From Glaciozyma antarctica PI12 (taxonomy: Eukaryota > Basidiomycota > Microbotryomycetes > Kriegeriales > Camptobasidiaceae), in contig KZ627148.1 in the NCBI GenBank assembly GCA_002917775.1, forward strand, positions 1,206,764-1,270,763: a stretch of DNA of 64,000 bases. Direction: 5' to 3'. The translations under genes and the position numbers were made by a program. The notes under the pieces are model-generated. The model did not search any database. It was not told the DNA's origin and worked only from the letters and a program-made list of their open reading frames with translations. Below are positions 4,278-53,771 of this stretch, piece by piece. Numbering within the stretch: position 1 is the stretch's first letter; each line of letters opens with the position of its first letter.

Positions 4278-5849
4278 ATGGCGCCTACCGTCGTTCCCCC
4301 TTCGTGCGTAGCCCCAGCTCCTTGGTCCTGTCCCCGCTGACCTCCCCCATCGCGCTCCCCTCCCCACAGATCCACATTCAACTGGGATAAGCTTGCCTTC
4401 GACCTCACTCCCACCAAGTGAGCCTTCCTTGCCAGCTCCCTCTGAACCGTGCTAACGCCCTTCCCCCCGCAGCGGCTACGCAAAGGTGAAAGCGCTTCAG
4501 AGGGAGACGCTCGCGGAGTGGGGGAGCTGACCCGACGGCTGCAGTACGTCTGGAGCGATGGAGAGTGGGGCCCCGTCGAGTGGGTCCAGGAGCCCTACCT
4601 GAAGATGCACGTCGGTTCCGGTAAGTCTTCCCTGGGTTAGAGGGGAGAACACGGGGAGCTGATGACTGTCGGCAGTTGCGCTCAACTATGGAGCCTCCTG
4701 CTTCGAGGGCCTCAAGGCTTTCCGCCAGCCCGATGGCCAGGTCAAGGTCTTCCGCCCCAAGGATAATGCCGCCCGGATGAACCACAGCGGCTCCATCGTT
4801 TCCATGCCTGAGCTGCCCGAGGCCACTTTTCTCGAGGGTGTCAACCTTGCCGTTGCTCGCAACCTGGAATTCGTGCCCAAGCACGCACCCTACGGCGCCA
4901 CTGGCGCGTTGTACGTGCGACCTCTCTACGTGAGTCCGTCCGCCGCTGTGGGTCGAGGAAGACGCTAACATTGCGGCTTGCGCAGTTCGCCTCGGGCGCG
5001 AACTTGATCCTGAGCGCGCCCAGCGAGTTCACCTTCATCGTCTACGTGACCCCTACCGGAAGTCTCTACGGCACTGCTGGATCGAACGCTCCCGCTGTCG
5101 ACGCTCTCGTCATCGAGACGTTCGACCGCGCTGCTCCCAAGGGTGTTGGACACGCCAAGCTCGCTGGTAACTACGCCCCTACGTTCCAGGTAAGGACAAG
5201 TTCGTCGTCGAGTTGCAGTGGAGTTAATCTTAACCCCTGCAGTTCGCCTCCGCCGCGAAGAAGGCTGGTTTTGCCATCACTCTCCACCTCGACTCTGCAA
5301 CGCACAAGAACATCGATGGTGCGTGCTTCTCGCGTCGCTTTTATTCCGAACTAACGTACGCCGCTGCGTAGAGTTCTCGACCTCGAACTTCCTCGGCATC
5401 GCCACTCGCAAGGACCCCTCCGCCGTCCCCAAGCTCGTCGTCCCTACCTCCCCCTCCATCCTCGCCTCCGTCACGACCAAGGCCATCATCGAGATCGCTT
5501 CTTCGCTCGGATACGAGATTGAGCGCCGCGTCATTCCTTTCGCCGAGGTCGTCGCAGGTGGCTTCGAGGAGGTCTGCGCCTGCGGAACTGCTGCCGTGCG
5601 TTCCGTTCCTCGACCTCTCGCTTTTCGACGAGCTGACATCTCGCAAATCCGCAGGCCATCACTCCTATCCGAAGCATCTCGTACAACTCCTCCCCCGATA
5701 CGCTCGAGAAGGTCGTCATTGGGAACGGCGAGACGGCTGGACCTGGCTTCCTCGCTATCCTCGCTGAACTCACTGGGATCCAGAGTGGTGTCCGCCCCGA
5801 CACCTTTGGATGGACCTGGCCTAGCGAGGGAGTCGATGGATCGTCGTAA
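4278..5849 (+). CDS. BAT1: Branched-chain amino acid aminotransferase
   Basis: This is a fold-type IV PLP enzyme that transfers amino groups between Leu/Ile/Val and 2-oxoglutarate. Nine exons (4278-4303, 4370-4417, 4473-4485, 4545-4620, 4676-4929, 4986-5189, 5243-5318, 5372-5595, 5655-5849) give about 371 aa with no shift. Key stretches are KYVWSDGEWGPVEWV and LNYGASCFEGLKAFR near the N-terminus, YVRPLYFASGANLIL in the middle, and GHAKLAGNYAP, whose lysine should bind PLP (about residue 195). The end is GFLAILAELTGIQSG. One exon is only 13 nt. The N-terminus (MAPTVVPPS) is short, with no clear mitochondrial presequence, so a cytosolic form is likely. The family also contains specialised fungal homologues, so substrate range is inferred. 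Confidence 0.93.
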
Positions 5850-17030: not shown

Positions 17031-17666
17031 GGTGGTGACTGGTGGTAAGGTGATTAGGCTAAAGGAGAGGAACCGGGTTAGCATGGGAGCGAAGGAGGCC
17101 TCGTTGTCGCGACTCGAGGTCGAAGGAGTGGGAACTGGCGGCGGGTGGGACGTGGCAAGGGCTGAGGCGACTGGAACTCACGCGACAAGGGAAGGAGTTG
17201 TTCAGTCGCTGTTCTGATGGTGTTTGGGCGTAACGTTCGAGTGCTTTGCCGAGGTGTGGAGGGAGGGAGGGAGCTGTCAAAAGGAAATAGAGGTCGAAAG
17301 ATCAGCGCACTGCCCTCTCCGCCTGAGTTCAATTAAGGGCCACGCTCACCTCTAGCTGACGGACTCGGACGGAGTGGCTGGTGTTGAGTACGTACGAGTT
17401 GATAGGTGAAGGCGTTCGTAAAGGAGTGCGTCGGCGTAAAAACAGCCCCAACCTCTTCCGCCCGGCTGTGTCCCAACGGGAATGACGCGCCAGATCTCGC
17501 AGGAAGATTTTGCTGTTGAGGAATGCAGCAGCATGTAACGGCGAAGGACTGAAAAGGAACGATCTCGAGCAGAAGCAGGTCCTGCGAAGGGAGATCGGAG
17601 ATGCCATCGAACGAACGAGTGTACACTCAAAAATCACATGGCACATCCACGTTCCTCCTCGCGGAA
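17031..17666. other. Intergenic region
   Basis: This region is upstream of PSA1 and downstream of the cystinosin gene, both on the reverse strand. It includes the PSA1 promoter and leader. No coding exon or repeat was supported. Confidence 0.5.
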
Positions 17667-19042: not shown

Positions 19043-19499
19043 ATGAACCAAGCCGGTGGACCCCCAGCAGGTGGCGCGCCCCCGCCCTTCCGTCCCCAAG
19101 TCTCCACCGCCGTCCAATACTCCTGCGCCGGTACGTCTCTCAAAACTTCGCTAGGTCGGAGAGCTGACTCCACCCGCTTCCTACTTGGTTGTGGAACGCA
19201 GATTGTGCTTCGGATAATGAGATCAAGGCGCGTGAGCCGATTAGGTGCAGGGAGTGTGGGTGCCGCGTCATGTACAAGAAGAGGATCAAGAGGAGTGAGT
19301 CGAGGTTTTTCGTACGGGGGGGCCTGAGGCGGGGCACTGGGAGGGAGGAGCAAGGGAGTTGCTTGAGGCGGTAGCTGACGGTGTTCTGTGCGTGCGTTGC
19401 TTTCGTGGCTTGCAGTGGTGAGTGGCGACCTGGCGCGTTCTTTGAGAGAGGTGGGGGCTGATCTCCTGTGGCGTGCAGGTTCAATTCGAGGCTCGCTAA
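19043..19499 (+). CDS. RPB12: RNA polymerase I/II/III shared subunit RPB12 (ABC10-alpha)
   Basis: This is a zinc-binding subunit common to all three nuclear RNA polymerases. The predicted product is 67 aa: a Pro/Gly leader, [32 protein letters not shown] and the invariant end KRMVQFEAR. Two CxxC pairs form the zinc site. Exons are 19043-19130, 19202-19294, 19416-19417 and 19479-19499. The third exon is just TG, needed to complete the Met codon (A|TG) before VQFEAR. It is flanked by a TTGCAG acceptor and a GTGAGT donor, and both surrounding introns have CTGAC/CTGAT branch motifs. No other donor/acceptor choice keeps the conserved end. The identity is firm; the 2-nt exon is inferred from splice logic and needs RNA evidence. 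Confidence 0.9.
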
Positions 19500-49329: not shown

Positions 49330-52300
49330 ATGTCCAACTACCCATCCCGCGATCCCAACTATCCTCCGTCCCGTCCCGAAGCCGCGCGGAGCTACCAAGA
49401 CCCCTTCGGCGACACTCAACAACAGCCCCCTTTCAACCCGCACGACGACTCTAGCGTCGGCTTCGGAGCTCACGATCGGGCCAACAGCAGATCGGCGGGA
49501 AAGCATCACCAGCCTTCGCGGTACCCGTACTCGGATCCGTACGGCGGTTCGAGCCAGAGCTTGGCGCGTACTGGCAGCTCGTACAACATCCCCGAGGAGA
49601 AGGTCTACGACGGCGACGAGACGTACCAGGGCGTTGACGATGATGACGAGGCGCTACCTTTGAGGGAGGCGCTACGTATGATTTTTCTACGCTCAGGGAC
49701 AAGAGTGAGTCGACGAGCAGGAGCCGATCCTCTCAGGAGCTGATCCCGAGTTCGTTTCGCAGGCTTGGTCCAGATGGTGCACGCTACGCCTCTCCCGATG
49801 TGAGCTTGTACCAGATGCCTCCGACTCCGTCGGGCTACGCTGGGAGCAAGCTTTCGAGGAACGAGACTTCTGCCGAGGTGCGTGCGCTTCCTACTTCGCT
49901 TGGAGACGCACTTGGCTCACAGGCACTTTGGGGAACAGGCGTGGGGACGGAGGCAGCGGATTAACCCTCGGAGGGCTATGACGAAGAGGGTCAAGCTTAC
50001 CCAGGGTGTGTTCGTCGCTACCCGTTCGACAACCTGAGCTGATCGCGTTCTTGCGGCGCAGGTAACTTCATCGCCGAGTTTGCTGTACCGACTGCCGTCA
50101 AGAACGCCAATCTTTCTGCTGGAGTCAGTGCGTTGCTCTCCTTTTCCCTAAAGTGCGAGCTGGGGCTGACCATCTTCGCCGACAGCTGGAGGACCGACGG
50201 AGTTCTCCCATATGAGGTACACTGCCGCGTGCTGTGATCCCAACGACTTTACTGCTGAGGTACGCTCCCTATTTCTTCGCTCGTTGCAGACCTAACCTCT
50301 CGTCCAGAACGGCTACTCGCTCCGCACCTCCTCCTACGGACGTCAAACTGATCTCCTCGTCTGCATCGTGCGTCTCTCCCGCGTTCTTCTTCCTTCAGCT
50401 GCTAACTCTCCACTCCCAACGCGCAGACTGCCTACAACGAGAACAAAATCCTCCTCTCGCGAACGCTCCACGGCCTCATGCTCAACATTCGCGACATGGT
50501 CAAGGGCAAGTTCTCCGAGTTCCGCAAGAGGGCCGAGAGCGGAGGACCAGAAGCTGGACGTGTGGGAGAAGCTTGGAAGAGGATCGTCGTGTGCTTGGTG
50601 TTTGATGGGATCGAACCGGCGGATAAGGCAGCTTTGGAGTGAGTTCGAGCGCTGCGTCGAAGGCTGGGGGGAGTGGGAGCTGATGGGTGCTCTTCGCAGC
50701 GTTCTCGCTACGATTGGATTGTACCAGGATGGTGTGATGAAAAAGGACGTCGATGGGAAGGAGACGATTGGTGAGCTCCGTTCTCCGCTGTCGCTCGCTG
50801 GGAGCTGATTTACGCTGCAAAGCCCACATCTTCGAGTACACAACGCAGCTCTCCATGTCTCCCAAGCCTGCGCTCGTCGAACCGCACCCGAACGATCCCA
50901 ACAACCTCGTCCCAGTCCAGATGATCTTCTGGTGCGCTCTCCTCGCTCGCTGCCCGTCTCGCCTTGCTCACACACTCGCCTCGCCTCGCAGCCTCAAACA
51001 GCAAAATATGAAGAAGATCAACTCGCATCGCTGGCTCTTCAACGCTATCGGAAAGCACCTTCAACCCGACGTCGTCTGCCTCCTCGACGCTGGAACCAAG
51101 CCTGGCAAGCGAAGCATCTACTACCTCTGGGAGGCCTTCCACCACAACAAGCATCTTGGAGGAGCCTGCGGGGAGATTCACGTGCGTCGGTCCAGTAGCG
51201 TGTTGATCTTGAGCTGACGAAGAAGAACAGGCGATGCTCGGGAAGGGCGGAAAGAAGCTACTCAACCCCCTGATCGCTGCCCAAAACTTCGAGTGCGTCT
51301 TCAGCATAGCTTCATGCGGTTCACACTGACCTCTCCTTTAGGTACAAGATGAGCAGTACGTCGGCGTCGATCGAGAATTTGCGAGGCTCGACTAACGAAC
51401 TCTCCCTCCCTCGCAGACGTCCTCGACAAGCCTACCGAGAGCTCCTTTGGCTACGTCGTGCGTTCCTCGTCACCTGATTCTTTTGTGCTGGTGCTTACGA
51501 GGTCTTGCAGTCCGTCCTCCCTGGCGCATTCTCCTGCTACCGCTACGTCGCGATTCAAGGCCGTCCTCTCTCGCAGTACGTCCTCATTTGCGCTCGGCAC
51601 ATCGTCACAGCTAACAGTTTTGTGCGTAGGTACTTCCACGGAGATCACACGCTTGCGTCTCGACTCGGAGTCAAGGGAACTGACGGCATGAGCATTTGGA
51701 CGAAGAGTGCGTCCACGCCTTGATGCAGATCTTGAGGAGGTTGGAGCTGACGCCTTACGGTCTGCAGACATGTTCTTGGCCGAGGATCGGATTCTCTGCT
51801 TCGAGCTCGTCGCGAAAGCCAACGAGCGATGGGTTCTCGGATACGTCAAGCCGGCGAAGGGAGAGACGTGTGTACTTCGCTTCCTCGCGTATGCAGGTTC
51901 TGATCCTTGAGACTGCAGGGACGTTCCGGAATCCGCTGCTGAGCTCATCAGTCAGCGTCGTCGCTGGCTCAACGGTGCGTCGTCTCGTCGAGGATAGCGA
52001 CTTGAGCTGATGCGAGAGTCGAGCAGGATCGTTCGCAGCTGGAGTCTACGCTCTCGCGCATTTTGGTCGCTTGTACAAGTCGGACCACGGCATCACTCGT
52101 CTCTTCTTCCTCCACGTCCAGGGCATCTACAACACCGTCATCCTCATCATGAGCTGGTTCGGTGAGCGATTCGTGTTCCTCGCCTGCAGGCCCGCTCGCT
52201 GACCCCCACGCGCTCGCAGCCATCGCCAACTACTACCTTACCTTTGACAGTGCGTACTTTCGCCAGGATCGCAGGATCGCAAGCTGACGGTTGAAGTCAG

Positions 52301-53771
52301 AAGTCATCATCACTGTCGTCGCGACCTCGCTACGGAATCCTCTAGACATTCCTGGGGCCAGCGACATGACGCAGCAGTGCTGGGCGGGCAGCTTCCTGCA
52401 GGATGACGATAGCTCGTCGTTCGACTGGCTCGGAGAGGTCAAGTGCGTCGCTGCTCGTTCTGCTGGAGTCTGGAGCTGACTTGGGTCGCTCTCTGCAGTT
52501 GGATCCTCAAGGTCATCTGTGCGTCGTGATCGACTGCGCTCCAGCATAGTTCTAGACTGACGCCCCGCCAAAGACCTTGTCTTCCTCGGATTGCAGATCA
52601 TCCTGGCTCTCGGTAACCGGCCGAAGGCGGAGAAGTTCACCTACACGCTCAGCATCGCTGTGTACGCCAGCTTGTCGACCTACCTCATCTTCAACACCGT
52701 CATCCTCACCATAAAGGCGTTCTGTGTACGTCCGCGCTGGCTTGACGTATGGACGGGGCACTGACGAGCTTCTTCTACAGCCCATCGGAGCAGCTCTCGC
52801 GGAATCAAACGGTACCAGCATCGGGGTCTTCCTTGGCAGCACCTATGGTCCCATCTTTGCCGGAATCGCTGGAACGTTCGGTGAGTCCGACCTCGTTCAT
52901 CGTCGGTGGCGTTGCTGACGCTCAGTAATGCTCAGGAATCTACATCCTCGCGTCGCTCATGTACCTGGACCCATGGCACCTCTTCCAGAGCATGCCTCAG
53001 TACTTGCTCATCGCCGCCAGCTTCACCAACATCCTCGTACGTCCATCTTTCCGCTCGTCGCTGCGCTCGCATTAAACCTTGCTGCTTTTGCGCAGAACGT
53101 CTACGCCTTCGCCAACTTGCACGATGTTTCGTGAGCCTCTTTCTCGCTCCTCCCGCGTTAGTGGGATACTGACTTTGACGCAGCTGGGGAACCAAGGGAT
53201 CCGACAAGGTCGAGGCGCTGCCATCCGCGACGTCGAAGAAGGACGGCAAGGAGGCGACCGTCGAAGTCCAGGAGAAGGTTCAGGAGGGCAAGTCGCTCGT
53301 CTGTGCTGCTTTCAAGCTCGCCTAACGCTCAATTTCTCGCAGATATCGATCTCACCTTCAAGGCTACTGTTATGCGCGCCGTTGCACCCTTCGACGAGAC
53401 CCAGGAAGTGGAGAAGCCGACGCCCGACGATCAGAACAAGACGTTCCGAACTCGCTTCATCTGCGCGTGGTTGCTCATGAACACCATTCTCGGTACGTCG
53501 GTTTGAATGCGCGACATACCTGGACGGAAGCTGATGAGGCTTCGTGCGTAGCTCTCACCATCAGCCGTCTCGGCTCTACGGTTCAGTCGAGCTACTTCAA
53601 GACGATTCTCTGGATCACTTTTGGGCTGTCTCTGGTGCGCTTCTCTGGTCTCGTCTGGTGAGCGCTTTCGTCTCTGCAAAGGTGTATTTTTCGTACTGAT
53701 GCGCCTGCAGGTATCTCGCTGGCGAATACGTCTTCCGTCTGGCGCGTCTTTGCACGCGCGGTCGCAAGTGA
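49330..53771 (+). CDS. CHS: Chitin synthase (division 1), 29 exons
   Basis: This is a plasma-membrane processive glycosyltransferase (GT2) that polymerises N-acetylglucosamine into wall chitin. About 958 aa in 29 exons: a disordered N-terminus ([20 protein letters not shown]), the chitin synthase N-domain ([20 protein letters not shown]), then catalytic motifs [64 protein letters not shown] and [20 protein letters not shown]. Several membrane helices follow ([40 protein letters not shown]) and a last pair at the C-terminus. QRRRWLNGS and overall layout fit class I/II/III enzymes. Exons of 14, 20 and 30 nt occur. One base seems missing at the start of exon 2 (49763), where C|GG rather than C|G is needed for RLGPDG. 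Confidence 0.93.

Follow-up and report, generated by a model that had tools for sequence, protein, structure and literature searches.

A probable two-nucleotide coding exon in the RPB12 gene of a fungus

The window analysed here, a stretch of 64,000 nucleotides with a GC content of 59.7%, contains a gene for RPB12 (RPABC4) at 19043-19499 on the plus strand, within contig C3 of a 20 Mb genome of 18 contigs. The Rpb12 subunit is essential and is common to the three nuclear RNA polymerases, its sharing being read partly from the PDB molecule names of its matches (RNA polymerases I, II and III). Exon 2 of the gene ends with ...AAG AGG A, and this final A (19294) is the first base of a split ATG codon. 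The last exon begins at 19479 and reads GTT CAA TTC GAG GCT CGC TAA. Where, then, do the other two bases of the split codon lie? RPB12 very probably carries a coding exon of 2 nt, TG (19416-19417), likely to be constitutive and placed between introns that would be removed stepwise by intron definition. The structure is as follows:

19043-19130, plus strand: RPB12 exon 1; opens with the start ATG at 19043, and its last base is the first of a codon
19131-19201, plus strand: RPB12 intron 1; 71 nt, GTACGT...GCAG, with CTGAC at 19164
19202-19294, plus strand: RPB12 exon 2; Zn-ribbon CADC...CREC and YKKRIKR
19295-19415, plus strand: RPB12 intron 2; 121 nt, GTGAGT...TTGCAG, its single CTRAY motif being CTGAC at 19375
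19416-19417, plus strand: putative RPB12 2-nt exon TG; completes ATG, Met 61
19418-19478, plus strand: RPB12 intron 3; 61 nt, GTGAGT...GTGCAG, with CTGAT at 19458
19479-19499, plus strand: last RPB12 exon, GTTCAATTCGAGGCTCGCTAA; VQFEAR and stop TAA

The TG thus lies in a gap of less than 3 nt between a canonical acceptor and a canonical donor, and both of these sites have a partner. A preliminary description of this DNA had placed TG at 19416-19417, between a TTGCAG acceptor and a GTGAGT donor, and had reported introns of 121 and 61 nt with CTGAC and CTGAT motifs. These letters, coordinates and motifs are all correct, with the A at 19294, GTGAGT at 19295, TTGCAG up to 19415, GTGAGT at 19418, CTGAC at 19375 and CTGAT at 19458. 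The distance from the branch A to the acceptor is 34 nt in intron 1, 37 nt in intron 2 and 17 nt in intron 3, and neither intron 2 nor intron 3 has an AG between its branch motif and its acceptor.

The identity of the gene was examined using the spliced product with TG, which is 67 aa long. In the test for the Zn-ribbon, this product scored 58 bits against PF03604 (family cut-off 24), and a genome-wide PF03604 search at E <= 0.001 returned one match, the RPB12 locus. The product matched 12 eukaryotic Rpb12 sequences in PDB with E <= 4.4e-10, some of them near-copies of one another. The best match was the Rpb12 chain 3h0g_L (66.5 bits), from what we take to be the fission yeast enzyme. Among pattern matches in viral_contigs (23 and 24), no relative was found. 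In genome_contigs, 11 of 38 pattern matches were confirmed, all with archaeal titles, and none was a eukaryotic RPB12 orthologue.

With TG included, the junction (AAGAGGATGGTTCAATTC) joins A, TG and GTT to read AAG AGG ATG GTT CAA (K-R-M-V-Q), and the product ends in KRMVQFEAR. These last nine residues are those of 3h0g_L, letter for letter; the corresponding end of 28jc_L, presumably the human sequence, is KRLVVFDAR. The ending had been described as invariant, which holds for its spacing and for the residues surrounding the split codon, since neither tail length nor R, V, A and R vary across five aligned Rpb12 tails. It does not hold for the methionine, the split-codon residue being M, M, L, L and V in the same five. 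The alignment runs through the last residue in 11 of the 12 PDB sequences, and the aligned stretches are of equal length in 10 of the 12, the other two showing a one-residue difference at some point along it. Joining exon 2 straight to the last exon (junction AAGAGGAGTTCAATTC) shifts the frame to ...KRSSIRGSL and gives a product of 125 aa without VQFEAR, as had been predicted for skipping of the TG. A closer inspection of this product revealed that it matches 3h0g_L only up to residue 61, with 51.5 bits, 15 fewer than with TG. The conserved C-terminal tail that ends the protein is present with TG and lost on skipping, and TG is needed to join the incompatible phases of a conserved protein. We strongly infer that TG would be included in RPB12 mRNA.

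Splice-site strength was assessed with a model trained on 264 kb of the genome (the window plus 200 kb, with 28,657 bases masked). The training set comprised 196 introns, predicted rather than annotated, with coding support on both sides, and RPB12 was left out. Their median length is 55 nt, 167 of 196 contain a CTRAY motif, the commonest donors are GTGCGT (58), GTGAGT (29) and GTACGT (26), and 106 have the acceptor GCAG. Relative to this set, the donors at 19295 and 19418 both lie at the 57th percentile, and of the acceptors, that at 19415 lies at the 76th and that at 19478 at the 56th; five competing acceptors were at or below the 3rd. For intron 1, the donor is at the 70th percentile and the acceptor at just the 17th. 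Three AGs in the interval 19290-19480 have a score above 0, and only the two that are used exceed 0.5. Six GTs score above 0 in the same interval, namely the two used, GTGCGT at 19388 and 19392, GTACGG at 19312 and GTTCTT at 19437. Several features of intron 2 count against the TG model. The GTGCGT donors inside it score 6.9, compared with 6.1 for the donors used, its length is at the 96th percentile, and its distance from branch A to acceptor exceeds the 95th percentile (30 nt), although the 34 nt of intron 1 does so too. The whole-intron score is at the 22nd percentile for intron 2 and at the 61st for intron 3.

The 184-nt intron that would skip TG, with the same outer sites, has a whole-intron score at the 12th percentile and is plausible to the splice model, so that its sites do not preclude skipping. 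There is consequently some room, although the odds are against it, for TG to be skipped or an intron retained on occasion, with such unproductive splicing setting RPB12 output. This is compatible with a coding TG exon. In addition to the 125-aa skip product, retention of intron 3 would give 146 aa with the same shifted tail, and retention of intron 2 would meet a stop after 86 aa. However, the splice sites flanking TG have unremarkable strength, and no sign of regulation appears in the sequence.

A very unlikely alternative is that exon 2 and the last exon are separated by one 184-nt intron (19295-19478), that the assembly has dropped two coding bases close to where exon 2 ends, and that the succession of acceptor, TG and donor is due to chance. 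The gene comes from one assembly, in which two bases missing next to a splice site would give the same picture, and an intron at the 12th percentile is not absurd. However, just 2 of the 196 introns in the training set exceed 184 nt, and TG supplies the same residue as the top PDB match. Moreover, chance would have had to put a 76th-percentile acceptor 2 nt from a 57th-percentile donor. When the inner 172 nt were shuffled with dinucleotides preserved, a 2-nt exon flanked by two equally strong sites arose in 0 of 20,000 shuffles, and the summed score was reached in 0 of 5,000. An equally strong frame-restoring microexon of 2, 5, 8, 11, 14, 17 or 20 nt occurred in 3 of 20,000. In 470,686 bases, searched on both strands, two AG-NN-GT sites are equally strong, the RPB12 site included. 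A threshold of 4 on both sides is passed by 13 such sites, and of these RPB12 alone has all three companion signals: a branch motif no more than 60 nt away and, at distances of 42-130 nt, a donor on the upstream side and an acceptor on the downstream side.

Sites with an acceptor close to a donor were also observed elsewhere. On the minus strand of the window, at about 46424 (reverse-strand position 17577), GCGCAG-AG-GTGCGT, a second strong AG-NN-GT site, places a high-scoring acceptor and donor 2 nt apart; no branch motif is present within 60 nt, nor any downstream acceptor, and the site is probably an ordinary exon end or chance. When AG..GT pairs 0-40 nt apart, each site scoring at least 4, were counted on both strands of the window and loci L003-L022, a spacing of 2 nt was the commonest (13; others 3-12), and spacings of 41, 47 and 55 nt reached 13, 13 and 14. 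The 2-nt peak may be noise or may reflect an AG/GT preference of exon ends. Across the whole genome, GCAG-N(0-24)-GTGAGT occurs 2,120 times on both strands and the reversed pattern 1,557 times, counts in which ordinary sites are mixed and from which no inference was drawn. Intron duplication as the origin of the RPB12 introns was considered and rejected, as the similarity among introns 1, 2 and 3 does not exceed that among shuffled introns.

Other ways of joining the conserved parts of the gene were enumerated. VQFEAR is kept in frame by 17 single-intron models (GC donors allowed) and by 28 models that have two introns and a middle exon no longer than 30 nt. A wider list held 344 in-frame canonical models, 14 with a single intron and 330 with two. 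The A/TG/GTT model ranks first of the 344 with a score of 13.4; the runner-up (10.8) removes the greater part of the Zn-ribbon. No other model among the 344 leaves exactly one residue between KKRIKR and VQFEAR. These results support the earlier proposal that the ATG codon is assembled from A, TG and GTT. The first ranking, made without a per-intron charge, favoured two-intron models; it was repeated with penalties of 3, 6 and 9 per intron, and at each the TG model remained ahead of the best single-intron model. A single intron that reaches VQFEAR through another donor or acceptor is hard to credit. The best of the 14, from the donor at 19312 (GTACGG) to 19478, is in frame with canonical GT-AG ends. 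However, its donor is at the 5th percentile, it scores 0.6 as opposed to 13.4, and it replaces M with SESRFF, adding five residues to a conserved tail and lowering the match to 3h0g_L by 12, to 54.2 bits.

A gene finder given no protein information returned the exact RPB12 structure, TG included, at an intron penalty of -3, one of five penalties used. At -4, -5, -7 and -9 it called no gene on the plus strand at the RPB12 locus. An earlier, self-trained gene finder included TG as an exon in three of its four rounds and was discounted as far too permissive, with up to 1,379 introns and run-on genes. Predicted small or densely packed exons also occur at other loci. In locus L016, at around 5635-5764, an 11-nt exon with four good splice sites is predicted between introns of 58 and 61 nt; the gene finder called it at 5/5 penalties. 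At 49978-53325 of the window (plus strand), an ab initio gene has 22 predicted introns in 3.3 kb, reflecting either very dense introns or over-prediction.

How could an exon of two bases be spliced? Introns 2 and 3 are ordinary GT-AG introns of 121 and 61 nt, and recognition of each would span the intron instead of the exon. A U1-type donor covers nine bases, and the nine at 19418 (GTGGTGAGT) start with the G that closes the upstream acceptor. Because of this overlap, simultaneous occupancy of both sites is hardly possible. The size and signals of the introns suit intron definition, and a stepwise order would follow because both sites cannot be used together; stepwise removal by intron definition fits the anatomy. 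Were intron 2 removed first, the RNA would read AAGAGGAUG/GUGAGU (AGGAUG/GUGAGU), a normal donor. Were intron 3 removed first, TTGCAG/TGGTTCAA would form a normal acceptor. Either order would yield AAG AGG ATG GTT CAA and an intact C-terminal tail. We infer that TG is included constitutively and that its flanking introns are removed stepwise. It is improbable, more so than occasional unproductive splicing, that the TG exon serves as a control point at which two mutually exclusive splicing steps let spliceosome capacity feed polymerase supply. If it did, failure of either step would lead to frameshifted or truncated Rpb12.

The preliminary description had also raised the possibility of recursive splicing. 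In zero-nucleotide recursive splicing, abutting introns are removed stepwise at an AG/GT point and no exon base is left. In this strict sense the term does not apply to RPB12, where the arrangement is AG-TG-GT and TG must remain in the mRNA. A stwintron, in which one intron would sit inside a splice signal of its neighbour and nothing between exon 2 and the last exon would be kept, is the least probable reading of all. Stwintrons are known in fungi and, as far as the excerpted text of PMC12403724 describes them, resemble the structure proposed for RPB12 in having two introns that abut, or here almost touch, and are removed stepwise. They differ in that a splice signal is interrupted, whereas both RPB12 introns have complete splice signals of their own and two coding bases would be kept; unless the assembly is wrong, the reading is excluded by the frame, which removing all 184 nt would break.

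A coding 2-nt exon in RPB12 would mean that an intron-dense fungus requires hardly any exon for intron definition, an exon of two bases being near the lower size limit. The C-terminus of this protein is likely to be wrong in ordinary annotation. Among the matches listed, the titles and abstract openings of open-licence PMC papers named neither a 2-nt exon in a fungus nor an RPB12 microexon. The excerpts of PMC12409088, PMC8042270, PMC13149111 and PMC5639578 add nothing on 2-nt exons, and that of PMC8624252 mentions RPB12 once. In the literature examined, only a few genes have an established exon of less than 3 nt, and the RPB12 TG exon is filed here with this known, very small class.

The excerpted reports describe a 1-nt exon in Arabidopsis APC11 (PMC4674806) and 1-nt exons in plant APC11 and VPS55 (PMC8831610). 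As proposed for RPB12, an exon of less than 3 nt lies in a conserved protein between two flanking introns and was missed by annotations, and stepwise removal has likewise been proposed for APC11. The plant exons are 1 nt long and are backed by RNA-seq, RT-PCR and cross-species conservation, whereas the RPB12 exon is predicted from the sequence of one genome. The smallest basidiomycete exons given in the excerpts of PMC9142197 and PMC1184071 are of 5 nt in Sirobasidium magnum bglA and of 6 nt in Rhodotorula minuta bglA and Phanerochaete chrysosporium P450s; as in RPB12, these tiny exons sit amid many short introns. A 1-nt exon has also been described in the CYP621A P450 genes of Fusarium, which the authors call the first in a fungal gene (PMC12940212, in excerpt). 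That exon is 1 nt long, belongs to a P450 and is backed by 20 orthologues and 18 reads, as against a polymerase subunit and the sequence of one genome for RPB12. Nevertheless, both are fungal and both were deduced from incompatible phases within a conserved motif. In both, moreover, the gap greatly exceeds the length of a typical intron, at 139 nt against a median of 56 in CYP621A and at 184 nt against a median of 55 in RPB12.
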